A stretch of DNA of 64,000 nucleotides from Nocardiopsis sinuspersici (lineage in GTDB: Bacteria > Actinomycetota > Actinomycetes > Streptosporangiales > Streptosporangiaceae), in assembly GCA_008638415.1 (NCBI GenBank), contig VWVT01000010.1, positions 248,001-312,000 of the forward strand, written 5' to 3'. Position numbers and translations under genes: made by a program. Shown in pieces: positions 595-25,734 of the stretch; the first letter of the stretch is position 1, and every line of letters begins with the position of its first letter. The notes beneath the pieces were generated by a model. The model was not told where the DNA came from, searched no databases, and worked only from the letters and a program-made list of their open reading frames with translations.

Positions 595-1416
595 GTGACC
601 GACACAGCCGCCGAGACACCCGCCGACGGGAAGGCCTCGCGCTATCTCTTCGACAACCACAGCGAGCACGCCTTCGACCAGCACCGCTTCCTGGCGGCCG
701 CCTACGATCCGATGACCACCGAGCGCCTGGAGCGGACCGGTGTCGGACCGGGGTGGGACTGCCTGGAGGTGGGCGCCGGCGGCGGCAGCGTCGCGCTCTG
801 GCTGGCCCACCGCGTCGCCCCGACCGGGAGCGTGCTGGCCACGGACATCAAGCCCGAACGGATTCCGCACACCCACGGGCTGGAGGTGGTCCGGCACGAC
901 GTCGTCCGCGACCCGCTCCCCGAAGCCGCCTTCGACCTCATCCACTCCCGGCTGGTGCTGCTGCACCTCCCCGAGCGGATCGCGGTCCTGGACCGCCTGG
1001 TGCGCGCGCTCAAGCCCGGCGGGGTGCTCCAGCTCGACGAGTTCGACATCACCTACGGGCCGGGGCTGCTCATGCCCGACGCCGCGTCCCAGAAGCTCTA
1101 CGAGGAGTTCCAGGAGGCCAAGACCAGGCTGATGATCCGTGCCGGGGCCGACCCGGCCTGGGGCCGCAACGCCGCCGAGGCGATGCGCCGCGCGGGCCTG
1201 GTGGACGTCGACCCCCGGCCCCGGCTGGAGCTGTGGGACGCCGACTCGCCGGGGGTGCACCTGATCGCGCACCACACCCGCCACCTGCGTGAGGCGTTCG
1301 TGCGCGAGGGGATGACCGACCGCAAGCTCGCCGACGTGCGCGCCCTGCTCGCCGACCCCTCCTTCCGGGCCTGCTCCTGTGCGGTCTACTCGGTCCAGGG
1401 CCGCCGCCCGAACTGA
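595..1416 (+). CDS. Class I SAM-dependent methyltransferase
   Basis: 273 aa. The SAM-binding motif I is clear (EVGAGGG near residues 58-64), followed by an acidic strand end (ATDIKPE), a post-I motif, and LKPGG-type motif near residue 140, the usual order of Rossmann-fold methyltransferases. The GTG start at 595 has an AAGGAG ribosome site just upstream, overlapping the stop of the AMP-ligase gene, which indicates an operon. The substrate is unknown; pairing with an acyl-activating enzyme suggests a small-molecule acyl or polyketide-like substrate, which is inference only. Confidence 0.85.
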   Translation: MTDTAAETPADGKASRYLFDNHSEHAFDQHRFLAAAYDPMTTERLERTGVGPGWDCLEVGAGGGSVALWLAHRVAPTGSVLATDIKPERIPHTHGLEVVRHDVVRDPLPEAAFDLIHSRLVLLHLPERIAVLDRLVRALKPGGVLQLDEFDITYGPGLLMPDAASQKLYEEFQEAKTRLMIRAGADPAWGRNAAEAMRRAGLVDVDPRPRLELWDADSPGVHLIAHHTRHLREAFVREGMTDRKLADVRALLADPSFRACSCAVYSVQGRRPN

Positions 1417-1462
1417 GGGCCAGGGCCCGGCCGGGATCCGTCGGGTGGGGTCCCACCGCCGT

Positions 1463-1517
1463 GATCTTGCTCCTGGTGGCACTGTCAGCGCTCGACAGTG
1501 CCGCTGGGAGCAAGATC
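1463..1517. terminator. Long imperfect palindrome between methyltransferase and SRPBCC genes
   Basis: Outer arms GATCTTGCTCC (1463-1473) and GGAGCAAGATC (1507-1517) and inner arms GGCACTGTC (1478-1486) and GACAGTGCC (1494-1502) are each perfect reverse complements, separated by a small 4/4 internal loop and a 7-base apical loop. The transcript would form a 20-bp hairpin. Its moderate GC is unlike the other terminators here. It could be a bidirectional terminator, a repetitive extragenic palindrome or a small mobile-element relic. Confidence 0.6.
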
Positions 1518-1604
1518 ATCCCGGTTGGGCATATCCCGGTGAACTCTCGCGGTCACGGCGCTAGGTTCGGGAGACGGAAGTGCCGTCGCGAAGAGGTGGG
1601 GACC

Positions 1605-2078
1605 GTGGGCCGGACGCAACCGCGCAAGGACCAGGGAAGCAGGACCGTTCGGGCGCCCGCGTCGGCGGTCTACGCGGCGATGACCGACCCGGACGCCCTC
1701 GCGGCCTGGCTGCCGCCGGAGGGCATGACCGGACGGACGGAGCGCTTCGAGCCGTGGCCCGGAGGCGGGTTCCGCATGGTGCTGACCTACCTCGACCCGC
1801 AGGCCGGACAGGGCAAGACCTCGGAGTCGAGCGACGTCACCGAGGTCGAGTTCGCCGAACTGGTCCCGAACGAGCGGATCGTGCAGCGGGTCGTCTTCGA
1901 GTCCCCGGATCCGGACTTCGCGGGGACGATGACGATGGTCTGGCGGCTCACCGAGGTGCCCGAGGGCACCCTGGTGGCCGTCGAGGCGACCGGTGTGCCC
2001 CGGGGTGTCTCCCAGACCGACCACGAGGCGGCCTTCGCCTCGTCCCTGGCCAACCTCGCGGCCCACGTCGAACGGTGA
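1605..2078 (+). CDS. SRPBCC (AHSA1-like) family protein
   Basis: 157 aa from the GTG at 1605, which has AAGAGG about 8 bases upstream; a GTG at 1596 is a less likely alternative. The frame stays open back to 1461 but that part lies inside the palindrome. The sequence has the START/Bet v1-like AHSA1 pattern: an early VRAPASAVYAA helix, ALAAWLPP, GGxFRMVLTY and a C-terminal helix (HEAAFASSLANLAAHVE). These proteins bind hydrophobic ligands or act as Hsp90-activator-like proteins; no ligand can be named. It is convergent with the NLR-like gene that follows, with stops about 40 bases apart. Confidence 0.85.
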   Translation: MGRTQPRKDQGSRTVRAPASAVYAAMTDPDALAAWLPPEGMTGRTERFEPWPGGGFRMVLTYLDPQAGQGKTSESSDVTEVEFAELVPNERIVQRVVFESPDPDFAGTMTMVWRLTEVPEGTLVAVEATGVPRGVSQTDHEAAFASSLANLAAHVER

Positions 2079-2117
2079 CCGCCTGTCCGTGGCCACCCGC
2101 CTGCCACGGCGGGCACC

Positions 2118-4241
2118 TCAGCCGCCCGCGGCCCGACGGCCCAGACGTTCCTCGACCTCCTCGGCGCGGGGATCGCCGTGGTCGCGCAGGTGTTCCAGGG
2201 CCGCACGCCACGCCGCCCGGGCCTCGCCTGTGTCGCCCAGTTCGGCGTGGGCGTCACCCAGGCCGAGCAGCGCCGCCGCCCGGCTGTCGGCGTCGTCGCG
2301 TTCCTCGAAGACCCCGATCGCCGCCCGGTACTCCGCCACGGCGTCGGCGGCCCGACCCGAGCCGGTGAGGATCCGGCCGAGGGTGCACCGTGCCCACGCC
2401 ACGCTCCACACGTCGCCGATACCGCCGAACGCATCGATCGCCGTCCGGCAGCGGCCGAGCGCCTCCTCCCACCTGGCCAGGTCCGCGCCGAAGTCGGCCA
2501 GGCTGAGCAGGCACATCGCCTCGCCGCGCCGTTCTCCCGACTCGCGGAAGACCGTGATGGCGCGTTCCACGTATCCGGCCGTGTCGTCCTCCCGCTCGCC
2601 GCGCTGCCAGGCCACCACGCCCAGCTGGCGCAGCGCGAAGCCCTCCACCCACGGGTCACCGGCTTGGCGGTCGGCCGCCAGGGCGAACCCGTAGTGCTGC
2701 ACCGCTGCGTCGGGGTCGCCCAACAGCCACTGGGCGTCGCCCATGCCCAGGTGGTTGCGGGCCGCTCCGAAGGCGTCGTCCGCCTCCTCGGCCGCCCGGA
2801 GGCCGATGGCGTGCAAGTCGCGCCACTCGTGCCAGTGCCGGTGCAGCTCGAAGAGCGGATAGACGCTCGCGGGCAGCCGCCAGGCGGTGTCGTGGTGGCC
2901 GTGGTCCAGGGCGGCCCGTGCCACTGCCAGGAGGTTCGTGCGCTCGGCCTCGAACCAGGCCAGCGTGTCCTCCACGGACGCGAAGCCGGGCAGTTCGTGG
3001 TCCTGTTCCTCCCCGGGCACGACGGGGAAGTTGGGGAGCTCCACGAGCTGGGCCCGGGCGGCGGCGTGTGTGTACCACCGGGCCACCCGTCCGACCGCCT
3101 CGCCCATCGTTTCCGGTCCGTCCTCGGCGCGGACCCGCTCGACCGCGTACAGCCGTACCAGGTCGTGCAGACGGTAGCGGTCCTCACGCAGTCGTTCCAC
3201 CAGGTGCGCGCGGGCCAGGCGGTCCAGGAACCCGCGTGCCCGAACCTGTCGCGTACCGGTGAGCGCGGCGGCGGCTCCGGAGGAGAACTCGGGCCCCGGA
3301 TGGAGGCCCAGATGCCGGAAGAAGCGGGCGGTGTCGTCGTCCAGGGCCTGGTAGGACGCCGTCATCACGGCGCGCAGATCGCTCAACTCGTCCTCCTCGG
3401 CCAGGGCGTCCAGACGGGACTCCTCGGCGGCCAGTTCGTTCACCAGGTCGCTCAGCGTCGCGTCCGGCCGGTCGAGAAGCCGCTCGGCGGCCACCCGGAG
3501 AGCCAGGGGAAGGCGCGCGCAGTGCTCGGCCAGCTCATGTGCCGCACGCGGTTCGGATTCCACCCGCGTTCCGATGGTGTTCCGCAGCAGGGCCACCGAG
3601 TCGACTACGGGGAGGACGCCCAGGGACAGCCGCCGGGCGCCCTCCCGGGCGACGAGCCCAGGTAGCGTGCTCCGACTGGTCACCACGACCATGCAGCCGG
3701 GCGCGGCGGGCAGCAGGGGACGCACCTGTGTCGGGTTGAGCACGTCGTCGACAACGACCAGGAGGCGCTTACCGTCGACTTCGGAGCGGTAGAGGGCCGA
3801 ACGGCCGTCCAGATCCAGGGGGATGCGTTCGGGGGGAACTCCGAGCGCTCGCAGGATCGCGTCGAGCGCCTGTGAGGCCTCGGCACGCGGGCCGGGAGCG
3901 TGCCCGTGCACGCTGGTGTACAGATCACCGTCGGGAAAGAGGCTCCGTGCCCGGTGTGCCCAGTGGACGGCCAGGGCGGTCTTTCCGACTCCCGGCGGTC
4001 CGGCCAGCACCGCGACGGGAACACTCGTCTCCGCCTCGGCTGCCAGCGCGTCCAGCTGTCGCAGGTGAGCGGTGCGGTCCACGAAGCCGGTGGCGGCCAG
4101 GGGCAGCTGGTGCGGTACGCGGACGGGGCGTGCGGGTCGGGAGACGATGTGAACGTCACCATGCACTGTGCCTGCCTGCACCAGGGTTTCCGGGCTGCCG
4201 TGCACGGTGTTCGTGGTCCGGGGGTTTTCGGTGTCTGTCAC
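2118..4241 (-). CDS. NLR-like STAND NTPase (NB-ARC + TPR) with N-terminal RHIM/BASS-like motif
   Basis: 707 aa, GTG start at 4241 with no clear ribosome site. Residues 11-30 carry a short motif with N11, G15, VQAG at 21-24 and G28. An NB-ARC type ATPase follows: P-loop GPPGVGKT at 81-88, Walker B VVVDD at 162-166, sensor-like TSR near 188-190 and LPLALR near 244-249. A winged-helix-like linker (YRLHDLVRLYA) and a C-terminal TPR array fill the rest. AfsR/SARP relatives have the same NB-ARC-TPR core but start with a DNA-binding domain, which is absent here. The short N-terminal motif resembles the amyloid-signalling motifs described on bacterial NLRs, which usually recruit a separately encoded effector. 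Two small genes precede it on the same strand. Confidence 0.85.
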   Translation of the reverse strand: MTDTENPRTTNTVHGSPETLVQAGTVHGDVHIVSRPARPVRVPHQLPLAATGFVDRTAHLRQLDALAAEAETSVPVAVLAGPPGVGKTALAVHWAHRARSLFPDGDLYTSVHGHAPGPRAEASQALDAILRALGVPPERIPLDLDGRSALYRSEVDGKRLLVVVDDVLNPTQVRPLLPAAPGCMVVVTSRSTLPGLVAREGARRLSLGVLPVVDSVALLRNTIGTRVESEPRAAHELAEHCARLPLALRVAAERLLDRPDATLSDLVNELAAEESRLDALAEEDELSDLRAVMTASYQALDDDTARFFRHLGLHPGPEFSSGAAAALTGTRQVRARGFLDRLARAHLVERLREDRYRLHDLVRLYAVERVRAEDGPETMGEAVGRVARWYTHAAARAQLVELPNFPVVPGEEQDHELPGFASVEDTLAWFEAERTNLLAVARAALDHGHHDTAWRLPASVYPLFELHRHWHEWRDLHAIGLRAAEEADDAFGAARNHLGMGDAQWLLGDPDAAVQHYGFALAADRQAGDPWVEGFALRQLGVVAWQRGEREDDTAGYVERAITVFRESGERRGEAMCLLSLADFGADLARWEEALGRCRTAIDAFGGIGDVWSVAWARCTLGRILTGSGRAADAVAEYRAAIGVFEERDDADSRAAALLGLGDAHAELGDTGEARAAWRAALEHLRDHGDPRAEEVEERLGRRAAGG

Positions 4242-4305
4242 AGGGGTCGCATATCGGCGTCGAAACGGGGGATACCTGCGGGCCGGAACCCGGCATTGCC
4301 GGAGG

Positions 4306-4518
4306 TCACACGCCCCTCCGCCGGAAGCACTCGACGGCGGCGAGGACCGTCTCGGGAGACACGGACCGCGGCCTCGCCCAGGGGATCGGTCGGCTTCGCG
4401 AAGCCGGCGTCGTTGAGCCCAGCGCCCTGGACGACGAAGTCAACCGTGTCGCTGAGGTAGACGAGGGGCAGCCCTTGTCCACCGAATTGTCGTCCTTGGT
4501 CAACAGCTCCAGTCCCAT
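4306..4518 (-). pseudogene. Small conserved actinobacterial protein, apparently broken by two compensating frameshifts
   Basis: Read from ATG 4518 the frame begins MGLELLTKDDNSVDKGCPS and then loses sense. After a one-base deletion near 4464 the next frame reads VYLSDTVDFVVQGAGLNDAG and on to GEAAVRV, and after a one-base gain near 4362 the original frame resumes with PETVLAAVECFRRRGV and a stop. Joined, this gives a ~70-aa protein resembling a small actinobacterial family (GCPxVYxxDxGxxVVQG followed by an aliphatic helix) that I recall seeing near XRE/DUF397-type genes. An in-frame ATG at 4548 is an alternative start. Either the gene is decayed or the assembly has two indels. Confidence 0.45.
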
Positions 4519-4560
4519 GGCTCTCCGCTCGGGCTCCGCAGCGTTCATCGGGCCTCGAAG

Positions 4561-4761
4561 CTAACACGGAAGCCTTGCCCCGTAGGGCTTTTGGCCATGT
4601 CCGGCCCATCCCTCCGAATACCTTTGCCGTATCCGCCCCATTTCGTCCTCGTCACCCTCACGCGACGCGCGCACGAGTTGCTTGATGTCAGCGACGGCGA
4701 GCGCGTTGCGCAGGTCCAGGGCTCTTTCTACGGGCGTGGTGTGGTCGCTGTTCTCGTTCAC
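4561..4761 (-). CDS. Small hypothetical protein
   Basis: 66 aa from GTG 4761, no clear ribosome site. The sequence is charged and predicted helical (ALAVADIKQLVRASREGDEDEM), with no recognised domain. It ends 13 bases before the next possible start on the same strand (ATG 4548), so it may head a three-gene unit with the frameshifted gene and the NLR-like gene. Amino-acid composition is reasonable for a real gene but the call rests only on position and composition. Confidence 0.35.
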   Translation of the reverse strand: MNENSDHTTPVERALDLRNALAVADIKQLVRASREGDEDEMGRIRQRYSEGWAGHGQKPYGARLPC

Positions 4762-5033
4762 GGCTTTGGCCCCGCCACGTTCGTGCGCATTCCCCCATGG
4801 TGATTCCTGCCCGCCGTGAAGGAAAGCCCATCAGTCGAACCGCTGTCGGTGAAGCGGGGTCGCCACTCCCGGCCATCCCCGCGACGTCGGTGCGCGGGAC
4901 ATCCCTCCCGGGCTTCCGCGCTGTTCGAGGGCTCCGGAGCGCAGGGCGGGCTCCCCGCCGGCCGACGGACCGGTGAACGGACCCGGTCGGCGGCCCAGGG
5001 CCTGGAAACCCGTGTGCGCGGTCGGGCGACCGG

Positions 5034-19706: not shown

Positions 19707-20289
19707 CGGGTGCCGCTCCGCCGGCGCGGGCGGTTCTCCGCGCGGCCGTTACGGCCCGGGCCCGCCGACCGGTCCGGGCATCGGGGCAGGTCACGGCCCT
19801 CCGGTGGGGCCGACGCGAATCCGCGGGGATCCACGCAGAACCAAATCCGTCGGCGGGGCATCAGCACCAGGGCAGGTGTCCTTGTCCGACGGGGGCGGCC
19901 ACCGGCGCGGGGCGGTGCCCCGGGCAGCGGATCCACCGCTGCCCGGCGCGATCGCGCCGGGAGCGCCCACGGCAGGCCGGGGAGGAGCGAAAACCTTCCT
20001 GGACAAGGATATGGTTTAAAGTCGAGTGTTCCCCGGCGCGCCGCGTCGCCCACGGGGCCGGGTATCCCGGCAACGGCGGACACCCTTCACCGGGGGTGAC
20101 AAGGAGTACGACATGGGGGATGAGACCTAGCGAGACCGACGACCGTGTGAGGCGCACCGCTGGCGTGACAGTGGACGTCTCGCCGCGTTCCGGGCGTGGT
20201 GGGGGCCAGGTGCCCGCACGGTGCCCGGTACGCGCCACCGACCAGCCGAATCAAGCACCGCCCCGTGCGGTAGGAGGCCGAGCCGACCT
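19707..20289. other. Intergenic region before the FHA gene
   Basis: About 580 bp with no frame of convincing coding character on either strand. An AT-richer patch near 20000-20025 (GATATGGTTTAAAG) may hold the promoter of the FHA gene, and an AGGAGG sequence lies near 20271. A gcvH gene, which precedes garA in Mycobacterium, is not here. Confidence 0.55.
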
Positions 20290-20832
20290 ATGTCGAGCGT
20301 TTACTGCACGCAGTGCGGTCACGCCGTTGCGGATGATGCCCGTTTCTGCTCCCACTGTGGGACTCCCCTCCGCAAGGCCGAACAGCAGGATCCCCGGCCC
20401 GGCGCTGGCGGGGACTCCGGCGGAGACGTCACGTCGACCATCTCCATCTCCGGTATCCAGGCACTGGAGGACGAGGAGTCCGGTGACGAACTGGGCGGCG
20501 ACGACCCCACGAACCCCGACGCCCTGCCGCCGGGCACGGCACTGCTCGTGGTCAGGCGCGGCCCCAACGCGGGGAGCCGCTTCCTGCTGGACAGTGACGT
20601 GACCACCGCCGGCCGCCACCCCAACAGCGACATCTTCCTCGACGACGTCACCGTCTCCCGCCGCCACGTGGAGTTCTTCCGCCGCGGTGACGGGTTCGGT
20701 GTCCGCGACGTGGGCAGCCTCAACGGCACCTACGTCAACCGGGAACCGGTCGACGAGGCCCAGCTCGGCGGGGGGGACGAGATCCAGATCGGCAAGTTCC
20801 GTATGGTGCTGCTGACCAAACCGCGACGCTGA
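20290..20832 (+). CDS. garA: Zinc-ribbon and FHA-domain protein (GarA/OdhI-like)
   Basis: 180 aa. The start ATG 20290 is followed by a zinc ribbon (CTQC near residue 6 and CSHC near residue 19), a polar linker, and a C-terminal FHA domain with the phosphothreonine-binding residues in place: GRHPNSDI, SRRH and NGTYVN. GarA/OdhI proteins switch 2-oxoglutarate metabolism; when an N-terminal threonine is phosphorylated it is bound by the protein's own FHA domain. The M. tuberculosis ETTS phosphosite is replaced here by TSTIS in the linker, and Mtb GarA has no zinc ribbon. Synteny with the nuclease, MerR and gcvP genes matches Rv1827-Rv1832. Confidence 0.88.
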   Translation: MSSVYCTQCGHAVADDARFCSHCGTPLRKAEQQDPRPGAGGDSGGDVTSTISISGIQALEDEESGDELGGDDPTNPDALPPGTALLVVRRGPNAGSRFLLDSDVTTAGRHPNSDIFLDDVTVSRRHVEFFRRGDGFGVRDVGSLNGTYVNREPVDEAQLGGGDEIQIGKFRMVLLTKPRR

Positions 20833-21005
20833 CGGGCACACCGGGGGCGAGCGCGGGTGCGGCGGGCGGGCCGATGAGGTTTGCGGCCCCCCGCCACAGG
20901 ACAGCTTTGTAACGAAGGGTGCCGATTTCGCCCTCGGGTCCTGATCCACAGGAGGAGCAGGGACGAGCGCCCATCCGGCATGACGACTCGTGGGACGGAG
21001 ACGCT

Positions 21006-21479
21006 GTGAAGCACATGGAGGTCGTCGGCGTCCGGGTTGAGATGCCCTCGAACCAGCCGATTGTCCTGCTCAAGGAATCCGATGGGGACCGTTACCTGCC
21101 GATCTGGATCGGCGGAGTGGAAGCGACCGCGATCGCGCTGGCCCAGCAGGGCGTGGCCCCGGCCCGGCCGCTCACCCACGACCTGCTCCGGGACGTGCTC
21201 GACGCCCTGGACACCGGACTCGAGACAGTCAACATCACCGGTCTCAACGACGGCATCTTCTACGCCGAACTGGTCTTCAGCAACGGCGTGGAGGTGAGCG
21301 CGCGCCCCTCCGACTCGATCGCCCTGGCACTGCGGACGGGCACACCCATCTACGCCCACGAGGACGTGATCGCCGAGGCCGGGATGCCGATACCGGACGA
21401 GCAGGAGGACCAGGTCGAGGCGTTCCGGGAGTTCCTGGACAACATCTCGCCCGAGGACTTCGGCAGGCGTACGGAGTAG
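21006..21479 (+). CDS. Bifunctional nuclease family (BFN/DUF151) protein
   Basis: 157 aa from GTG 21006 (ATG 21015 is the next candidate). The family core is unmistakable: EVVGVRVEMPSNQPIVLLKE, YLPIWIGGVEATAIALAQQG, RPLTHDLLRDVL, and ARPSDSIALALRTGTPIY. Some plant and archaeal members are reported as nucleases; in actinobacteria the role is not known. Equivalent to Rv1829 by order. In Mycobacterium a MerR gene (Rv1828, ftsR) lies between garA and this gene, but here only about 170 bases separate them. Confidence 0.9.
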   Translation: MKHMEVVGVRVEMPSNQPIVLLKESDGDRYLPIWIGGVEATAIALAQQGVAPARPLTHDLLRDVLDALDTGLETVNITGLNDGIFYAELVFSNGVEVSARPSDSIALALRTGTPIYAHEDVIAEAGMPIPDEQEDQVEAFREFLDNISPEDFGRRTE

Positions 21480-21499
21480 GCACCGGAGCGACCCCTCCC

Positions 21500-21525
21500 G
21501 GGACCCGCACCCGCGTGCGGGTCCC
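21500..21525 (+). terminator. Terminator after bifunctional nuclease gene
   Basis: GGGACCCGCAC (21500-21510) and GTGCGGGTCCC (21515-21525) pair perfectly around CCGC, 20 bases after the stop. Confidence 0.85.
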
Positions 21526-21734
21526 ACGCGTGGGCGGCACCGGTGCGAACGCACCGGCGCGGCCGAGAAGGACACGTCGTGACCTGCGGCTTTGTTCCGG
21601 GCGCCGGTGATAGATTGGAGCACGGAAATGGCCGTAGCGATCCGGGCCGAAACCCCGGTCGGCGCACAGGGCGCCGCCGGACGGCTCCGCGACACCAGCG
21701 CCGCGCGCACTTGGCGACGCGCCGCGTGGTGTCG

Positions 21735-21763
21735 TTGACGCTGCCGGTCGGCCGTCCTACCGT
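21735..21763 (+). promoter_or_regulatory. Housekeeping-type promoter of the MerR gene
   Basis: TTGACG (21735-21740), a 17-bp spacer and TACCGT (21758-21763) match the actinobacterial primary sigma consensus well. The start would be near 21770, giving an 80-base leader before GTG 21850. Confidence 0.65.
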
Positions 21764-21849
21764 CAGTCCAGTGGAACCCGCGGCGCACCCGTTCCCTGAG
21801 TGGACATCCCCTGTCGATACCGCCGTGGGACGAGAAGCCGGAGGTCGGC

Positions 21850-22443
21850 GTGGCGGTAGCGGGCGGCGAGCGGGATCCCCATGACAGGCGGTTCGCGCTG
21901 CGGCTGGCAGGGCAGCAGGGCCTACTGTGCGAAGAGGACGTGGTGGCGCTGCCTATGGACGTCGGGTATCGGGGCCCCGCGGCGTGTACCGCTGCCGGGA
22001 TCAGCTACCGCCAGCTCGACTACTGGGCCAGGACAGGCCTGGTGGAGCCGAGCGTGCGCACCGGAGCCCACAACGCCCCCCTGTACAGCCTCCCCGACAT
22101 CCTGCTGCTCAAGGTGGCCAAACGGCTCCTGGACACCGGGATATCGTTGCAGCAGATCCGTACCGCGGTCGACCACCTGCGCGGCCGCCCCGCCCCCGAC
22201 CTGGCCCGCATCACCCTCATGAGCGACGGCGTCAGCGTCTACGAGTGCACCTCGCCCGACGAGGTCGTCGACCTCATGCAGCGCGGACAGGGCATGTTCG
22301 GCCTGGCCCTGGCCAACGTCTGGCACGAGCTGGAGGAGGCACTGGGCGTGGTCCCCGCCGAGGAGCGGACCGACCTGCCCGCCGCGGCGCCCCAGCCCAT
22401 GGACGAGCTGGCCAGGCGCCGCCGGGAGCGCCGTACCGGCTGA
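21850..22443 (+). CDS. MerR-family transcriptional regulator (Rv1830-like)
   Basis: 197 aa, GTG start at 21850 with GGAGG 6 bases upstream. The MerR winged helix-turn-helix follows a ~35-aa N-terminal extension (GYRGPAACTAAGISYRQLDYWARTGLVEPS, then YSLPDILLLKVAKRLLDTGISLQQIR). The C-terminal half (VYECTSPDEVVDLMQRGQGMFGLA) matches the Rv1830 type rather than Rv1828/FtsR. No metal-binding cysteines of classical MerR proteins are seen. Target genes unknown; its conserved position just before gcvP and after the FHA and nuclease genes is typical. Confidence 0.88.
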   Translation: MAVAGGERDPHDRRFALRLAGQQGLLCEEDVVALPMDVGYRGPAACTAAGISYRQLDYWARTGLVEPSVRTGAHNAPLYSLPDILLLKVAKRLLDTGISLQQIRTAVDHLRGRPAPDLARITLMSDGVSVYECTSPDEVVDLMQRGQGMFGLALANVWHELEEALGVVPAEERTDLPAAAPQPMDELARRRRERRTG

Positions 22444-22654
22444 ACCGCCCCTCCGGGCGCGAGGGGGAAGAACCCGCCGCCGGAGCCCGGCCCCGTTCGT
22501 GGAATCCCACAGGAGGGCGCCGTCCCCCCGGTGGAACACCTGACCGGAGGCGGTGCTCGGCACGGCCATCGAGTACCGTCGTAGTCACAACGGGGATGAA
22601 AACCGACATTCACCCTGCTTGTACACATGTACAGACTGTCAGCTGGCTGTCGAT

Positions 22655-22792
22655 GCCGCGCGAGAGAGACCCCGCCAACGGGGCGCCGACGGGGCAATAC
22701 TCCCCAGTAACCTCTCAGGCACCATGGACCGCGTGGAGTAGGCCGCTCTGAAGCCTGGGCACCGCCGTGCCCGGTGACAGAGGGGGAGACCG
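22655..22792 (+). ncRNA. Glycine riboswitch upstream of gcvP
   Basis: Conserved gcvT-motif elements occur in order: GAGAGACC (22663-22670), a short hairpin CCCGCC/GGGGCG, GCCGACGGGGCAA near 22684-22696, CTCTCAGGCACC (22712-22723), GACCGCGTGGA, GCTCTG (22745-22750) and GACAGAGGGGGAG (22776-22788). It sits directly before the glycine decarboxylase gene, the classic target. One aptamer is evident. Two downstream segments can pair with its 3' end in mutually exclusive ways, one close to the gcvP ribosome site, so control of translation initiation is likely. Confidence 0.85.
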
Positions 22793-22839
22793 TGAGGAAC
22801 ACCGCCGAACAGACTCGGCCCTGTCACCAGGAGGTCTCC

Positions 22840-25734
<2,895 letters not shown>

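Follow-up and report, generated by a model that had tools for sequence, protein, structure and literature searches.

A singleton glycine riboswitch ahead of gcvP with a conserved helix over the Shine-Dalgarno sequence and P5 as its candidate competitor

Overall organization of the gcvP leader

By the window we mean the whole 64,000-nucleotide stretch of Nocardiopsis sinuspersici DNA analysed here. Its gcvP leader (22655-22842, forward strand, as for all features of this leader) belongs, by the sequence features that we tested, to a known class, the type-1 singleton glycine riboswitches with P5 tracts, in which one aptamer is followed on its 3' side by a ghost aptamer. Comparison with related leaders gives good support to B:B' (GGAGACC:GGTCTCC) as a helix that would cover the Shine-Dalgarno sequence, and the P5 pseudoknot (UCCCC at 22701-22705 with GGGGA at 22783-22787) looks a better candidate for the competitor of B:B' than the A:A' pairing on which a first-pass annotation of the sequence had relied.

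That annotation had placed a glycine riboswitch upstream of gcvP and derived a translational switch from two mutually exclusive pairings. On checking the sequence, we found all of its named segments where it had put them, including A (GGTGACAG, 22773-22780), B (22785-22791), A' (CTGTCACC, the complement of A, 22821-22828) and B' (22833-22839), in the order A-B-A'-B'. Its model as a whole is borne out in part, in that the riboswitch, the translational platform and B:B' stand and A:A' does not. The Rfam covariance-model search returned RF00504 at 22651-22741 (+) with 56 bits against a gathering threshold of 32, and a scan of 22560-22900 gave no second RF00504 aptamer at E ≤10. The sole aptamer found presumably binds glycine.

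The gene downstream (22840-25734, +), with a GTG start at 22840-22842, encodes the glycine cleavage P protein according to its profile matches (PF02347, 629 bits; PF21478, 197 bits). An alternative in-frame GTG at 22792 was rejected as the start, because the start codon lies at varying distances from CAGAG (59-62 nt) and at least six congeners lack the codon at 22792. As for the neighbourhood (20221-25734), it comprises an FHA/zinc-ribbon protein, a bifunctional nuclease domain protein, a MerR-type regulator and gcvP, an arrangement that may resemble the garA-gcv region of other Actinobacteria. A simple scan of the leader revealed no intrinsic terminator, which agrees with the translational expression platform that had been proposed and fits the preference for translational control reported for Actinobacteria in the available part of PMC6944388; the same preference is stated for direct translation attenuation in that of PMC2258182.

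Leaders compared

We read 140 leaders, made up of 40 from the window's genus (window included), which give 39 distinct rows, and two further sets of 60 and 40 loci. The 60 loci were taken from 73 strong GcvP matches (two duplicated earlier ones and 11 were left out), and the 40 loci came from 39 genomes, out of 111 that gave a match. After 15 leaders without a recognised start or P1 end were dropped, at least four of which (L173, L189, L190 and L191) have no aptamer core at all, 125 remained. Helix permutations were performed with 85 leaders, namely the window and 84 loci from other genera; L158 was dropped from this set for its short spacing, and L141 is anchored on the wrong CAGAG, so its B window is wrong there. 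A second set of 38 leaders was hand-picked to spread over the clades.

The ghost aptamer and its surroundings

Downstream of the aptamer, the putative ghost P1 pairs CUCUG (22746-22750) with CAGAG (22778-22782) and encloses a stem-loop (22753-22775, GCC:GGU and GGGCAC:GUGCCC) defined by folding and pair counts. Neither this ghost aptamer nor the P5 pseudoknot figured in the first-pass model, which had regarded segment A as part of the conserved aptamer end; what holds of this is that A takes in bases of the ghost stem and of the adjoining 3' strand of ghost P1. All of the 39 distinct genus rows have the same ghost P1, and 97.5% of the cells of the ghost helix are paired. In the stem-loop, one pair is changed on both sides, a number that shuffles reach in 295/500 cases, and the pair 22753:22775 goes from G-U to G-C in three rows. 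Moreover, a CTCAGG-type second core occupies the ghost position in some more distant relatives, and eight relatives scanned with Rfam each gave one aptamer above the gathering threshold. The fold of the whole leader does not contain the Rfam P1 of the aptamer.

In 93% of cases, type-1 singletons control glycine cleavage genes (PMC6944388, available part). Like them, the gcvP leader has one RF00504 aptamer, a degenerate 3' stem with a conserved P1 and a glycine cleavage gene downstream; nothing was found that sets it apart from the class as that part of the paper presents it, and the Shine-Dalgarno platform is described here.

Upstream of the aptamer, there is a block conserved in the genus (22568-22617), which reads ATCGAGTAC.GTCGTAGTCAC and then GGGGATGAAAACCGACATTC.CCCTG; bases 22591-22595 and 22613-22617 could form a stem of 5 bp. 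Among the next 18 leaders, ATCGAGTACGGTCG occurs in two and a near copy in three others, and the second half of the block was not seen by eye in any of the 18. Between block and aptamer lies a near-palindrome, TTGTACACATGTACA (22619-22633), found by eye as an exact copy only in the window and three others of the 40 rows, with variants elsewhere. The genome also has a second glycine riboswitch (L001, reverse strand, at about 1500-1800) with two aptamer-like cores, preceding a frame that resembles gcvT. Here, the tract after P1, GGGAGGATGG, pairs with CCATCCTCTC, which ends right before the Shine-Dalgarno sequence, and the platform therefore differs from that of gcvP; the P3b elements CCTCCCC/GGGGAGG are kept.

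The B:B' helix over the Shine-Dalgarno sequence

The B' arm (22833-22839) consists of the last GG of the Shine-Dalgarno sequence (AGGAGG, 22829-22834, invariant within the genus) and the spacer to the start codon. B and B', with their seven Watson-Crick pairs, are identical in 40/40 genus leaders, the window included. Across 15 neighbouring genera, all of the 17 leaders whose GcvP is nearest to that of the window (73-81% identical over the compared N-terminus) have B:B' with 6-8 contiguous Watson-Crick pairs, which upholds the annotation's view that the helix buries part of the Shine-Dalgarno sequence and the start flank. One further leader, with a GcvP likewise 73% identical (L116), has only four pairs. 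In the set of 85, at least six pairs are found in 36 leaders and fewer than six contiguous pairs in 49, and the covering helix is thus not universal. Farther from the genus, it comes in compensatory types with both arms changed: GGAGGCC/GGCCTCC (L163, L164, L194, L195, L196 and L198), GGAGGC/GCCTCC (L169 and L183), GGAGCC/GGCTCC (L158 and L180) and GAGGAAC/GTTCCTC (L187).

More formally, the mean longest Watson-Crick helix between cognate B and B' windows is 5.06 pairs versus 4.36 when partners are permuted, and none of the 5000 permutations reaches the cognate value (85 leaders). For the hand-picked 38, the values are 4.61 and 4.23, with 19/5000 permutations reaching the former, and four comparison window pairs in that set gave 698 to 4825 of 5000. 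By duplex energy, three comparison windows themselves reached 28, 66 and 133 of 5000 (the fourth, 3254); we relied on Watson-Crick length because base composition inflates the duplex-energy permutation.

Within the genus, the B:B' pairs never vary and there is no compensatory change in the helix or its interior, and therefore the genus rows neither support nor oppose B:B'. Scored for covariation as a whole, the nested structure does no better than shuffles either (128/500). In the minimum free energy (MFE) fold, the interior of the hairpin (22796-22828), in which segment A' falls, is paired at 22796-22797:22827-22828, 22799-22801:22822-22824 and 22804-22808:22815-22819; 99.0% of its cells are paired in the genus and no pair is changed on both sides. 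A compensatory change between ACA:UGU in the genus and GCA:UGC in six neighbours was read by eye, as MAFFT misaligns that stretch.

Two further sequences were noticed around the hairpin. A Shine-Dalgarno-like AGGAA (22795-22799) inside it is kept in 40/40 genus leaders; most leaders of the neighbouring genera have AGGAGC or a like sequence in its place. In 12 leaders of the family, GGTCTC(C) complementary to B stands upstream of the Shine-Dalgarno sequence; these also have a pyrimidine-rich sequence at the Shine-Dalgarno sequence, and the upstream copy, with which B pairs in place of B' in several family members, could form an extra competing helix.

The putative P5 pseudoknot

P5 would join the loop of the P3b stem-loop (22698-22709, UAC-UCCCCA-GUA, invariant within the genus) to the G tract GGGGA, and the P3b C tract is indeed complementary to this G tract, which lies directly 3' of the last P1. 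A pattern search finds the two tracts together, CCCC in P3b and GGGG after P1, in 120/125 leaders. When the other five were read by eye, two proved to have UCCCC/GGGGA and to have been missed by the pattern, L181 has CCCC/GGGG and L179 has CUCCC/GGGAG, and L167, from another genus, has CCUCUCC/GGAGAGG, a compensatory change on both sides of P5. The genus of L167 was followed further with 30 loci, of which one (L222) was unreadable. All 29 others have seven P5 pairs in the best window (15 with seven Watson-Crick pairs, 14 with six and one G-U); GGAGAGG occurs in 14, one G-U in 14 and the usual CCUCCCC/GGGGAGG in one, counts that are of sequences, not of independent events, and may include loci that are not gcvP leaders. 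P5 does not vary in the genus of the window; its covariation is thus seen in a single distant genus and may go back to few events. By eye, the complementarity between G tract and Shine-Dalgarno flank is weak in the loci of that distant genus, and the output mechanism there must differ.

P5 and B have G22785, G22786 and A22787 in common, and therefore P5 and B:B' cannot both form fully. In the available part of PMC13104608, which follows Torgerson et al. 2020, P5 is a feature of glycine ON switches and is reported absent from OFF versions. The likeness of the gcvP leader to the tandem ON switches described there lies in the P3b C tract and in a G tract directly after the second P1, here the ghost one; the leader differs in being a singleton and in having its G tract also in the helix that covers the Shine-Dalgarno sequence.

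Proposed switch mechanism

The elements of the scheme that the sequence and its comparison with relatives show are the aptamer, ghost P1, B:B', the conserved P5 tracts and the overlap of one tract with B. Without glycine, B would pair with B', and the long hairpin closed in this way would occupy half of the Shine-Dalgarno sequence and the spacer as far as the GTG. When glycine is present, the aptamer and the ghost aptamer would dock, and in the docked state the P3b loop would capture the G tract right after ghost P1; by taking the 5' end of B, P5 would weaken B:B', free the ribosome site and turn gcvP translation on. P5 presumably depends wholly or largely on glycine for its formation. Likewise presumed is the ON sign, from the reported behaviour of gcv switches (PMC13104608 and PMC5829553, available parts) and from the reports that link P5 to ON switches. 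A block of translation may also lead to Rho-dependent termination in the gcvP leader, by analogy with the mycobacterial Mbox, for which such termination after a translation block has been described (PMC12810186, available part).

P5 was represented in the fold solely by blocking its nucleotides. With five nucleotides blocked, the predicted cost of opening the start region of the window falls from 14.4 to 11.2 kcal/mol (10.1 with six). The 40 genus leaders have a median of 11.65 without and 8.71 with the block (at least 1 lower in 35/40), and the 17 neighbours one of 10.99 without and 7.89 with it (at least 1 lower in 14/17); farther away, the cost is more than 0.5 lower in 21/32 other leaders of the family and 15/30 of the class. 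These drops are partly built in, because the block itself removes B:B' pairs. Moreover, a four-pair remnant (GACC:GGUC) and the interior hairpin stay in the blocked model, and the probability that the Shine-Dalgarno sequence is unpaired goes from a genus median of 0.40 to 0.31 (0.40 to 0.37 in the window). Since the block does not fully uncover the Shine-Dalgarno sequence and leaves remnant pairs in place, we regard the scheme as probable and no firmer than that.

In a more general reading, which we find possible and slightly less probable than its opposite, the near-invariant G tract after P1 would be the whole switch in many actinobacterial gcvP leaders, held by the P3b C loop in the on state and by the Shine-Dalgarno flank in the off state. 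P5 would then be, at that same tentative level, the competitor of the expression platform, beyond a structural extra. We gave this reading less weight because the opening cost drops in only half of the class leaders.

Alternative explanations

Instead of P5, an extension of ghost P1 (22743-22744 with 22784-22785) into B could give the glycine effect, and the MFE fold does add two such pairs past a mismatch, reaching G22785 or its neighbour. We consider this improbable, in that the extension overlaps B by at most about one nucleotide and that the bases directly 5' of CUCUG vary among genera where the G tract hardly does. Moreover, the MFE fold contains both ghost P1 and B:B', and we rejected them as a mutually exclusive pair.

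Two other alternatives involve A:A'. Together with B:B', A:A' provides the sole perfect Watson-Crick helices of at least 7 bp within 22655-22842. As coincidences within one sequence, such helices are none too rare: when the 188 nt are shuffled with dinucleotides preserved, an 8-bp helix arises in 619/2000 and a crossing 8+7 pair in 230/2000, and for the 102 nt of 22741-22842 these counts are 250/2000 and 30/2000. The reality of the pairings therefore depends on comparison with relatives. The annotation had expected both complementarities to be kept in related gcvP leaders, which holds for B:B' and fails for A:A', whose longest helix has at most four contiguous Watson-Crick pairs in 17/17 neighbouring-genus leaders.

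Among the leaders compared, A:A' is confined to the window's genus, where it is paired throughout (G-U allowed) in 36/39 distinct rows and no pair is changed on both sides. In the three broken rows (L079, L082 and L090), C replaces U at 22775, which breaks A:A' and keeps the ghost pair 22753:22775. In helix length, cognate A and A' do no better than permuted ones (2284/5000; for the hand-picked 38, 2387/5000). Duplex energy gives the cognate pairing a slight advantage in the full set (182/5000) and without the window's clade (116/5000), and none for the hand-picked 38 (1115/5000) or in the window's clade (2628/5000). Forcing A:A' puts the fold about 8.6 kcal/mol above the minimum, which has ghost P1 and B:B' together. 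In local folds, A' pairs inside the B:B' hairpin with a mean probability of 0.378 (40 genus leaders) or 0.448 (17 neighbours), and with A at 0.000, in a model that cannot represent pseudoknots. On fold energy, pairing in relatives, row breakage and permutation, we thus rejected A:A' as a regulatory helix, and its complementarity looks incidental.

An H-type pseudoknot, in which A:A' and B:B' together lock the Shine-Dalgarno sequence without ligand and ghost P1, once formed with glycine, undoes A:A' and so eases the lock, would be allowed by the A-B-A'-B' order, would make use of the exclusion between ghost P1 and A and would have the correct sign (ON). It has little chance of being right, as it depends on the genus-limited, uncompensated A:A', and its helices of 8 and 7 bp would have to be connected by short loops of 4 nt each (22781-22784 and 22829-22832).

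Still less probable is the two-state model of the annotation, in which A:A' leaves the Shine-Dalgarno sequence free and B:B' covers it. Its perfect 8-bp complement crosses B:B', most genus rows pair throughout, the overlap of A with ghost P1 makes glycine control conceivable and the energy permutations lean slightly its way in two of the sets above; against these stand the neighbouring leaders, the permuted helix lengths, the energies in the other two sets, the uncompensated and broken rows and the forced fold. The sign is also wrong. A is mostly the 3' strand of ghost P1, so A:A' would form only with ghost P1 open, that is, without glycine, and the two-state model would therefore have glycine switch gcvP off, contrary to what is reported for gcv switches. 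A glycine OFF switch built on the compatibility of ghost P1 and B:B', which together form the computed minimum, is very improbable, as gcv switches are reported to be ON (PMC13104608 and PMC5829553, available parts) and the P5 tracts that OFF versions reportedly lack (PMC13104608) are present in the gcvP leader. We retain P5 as the favoured competitor of B:B'.

Comparison with known systems

In Streptomyces griseus, the gcv genes are activated by glycine, as PMC13104608 and PMC5829553 report from other work (available parts), and its gcvP and gcvTH riboswitches (Tezuka and Ohnishi 2014, via citing papers) share with the present case an actinobacterial gcvP leader and, on the scheme proposed here, activation by glycine. 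The tandem translational ON switch of Neisseria gonorrhoeae gcvT (PMC13104608, available part) is alike in that, without ligand, sequence of the 3' aptamer pairs just before the start codon; unlike the window's leader, in which the tract after ghost P1 does the pairing, it uses P3/P1 nucleotides of aptamer 2, which pair with -1 to -11. In the literature searched, with key original papers outside it, we met neither a link of P5 to Shine-Dalgarno control in Actinobacteria nor a mention of the P5 G tract doubling as the 5' arm of a Shine-Dalgarno helix, and we claim neither as unpublished.

A:A' shows that neat complementarities in a single sequence can be by-products of other conserved elements. 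If the proposed mechanism is true, the P5 of glycine riboswitches would gain a direct job in gene control, and there would be a scheme for how actinobacterial glycine switches that lack a terminator reach the ribosome site.
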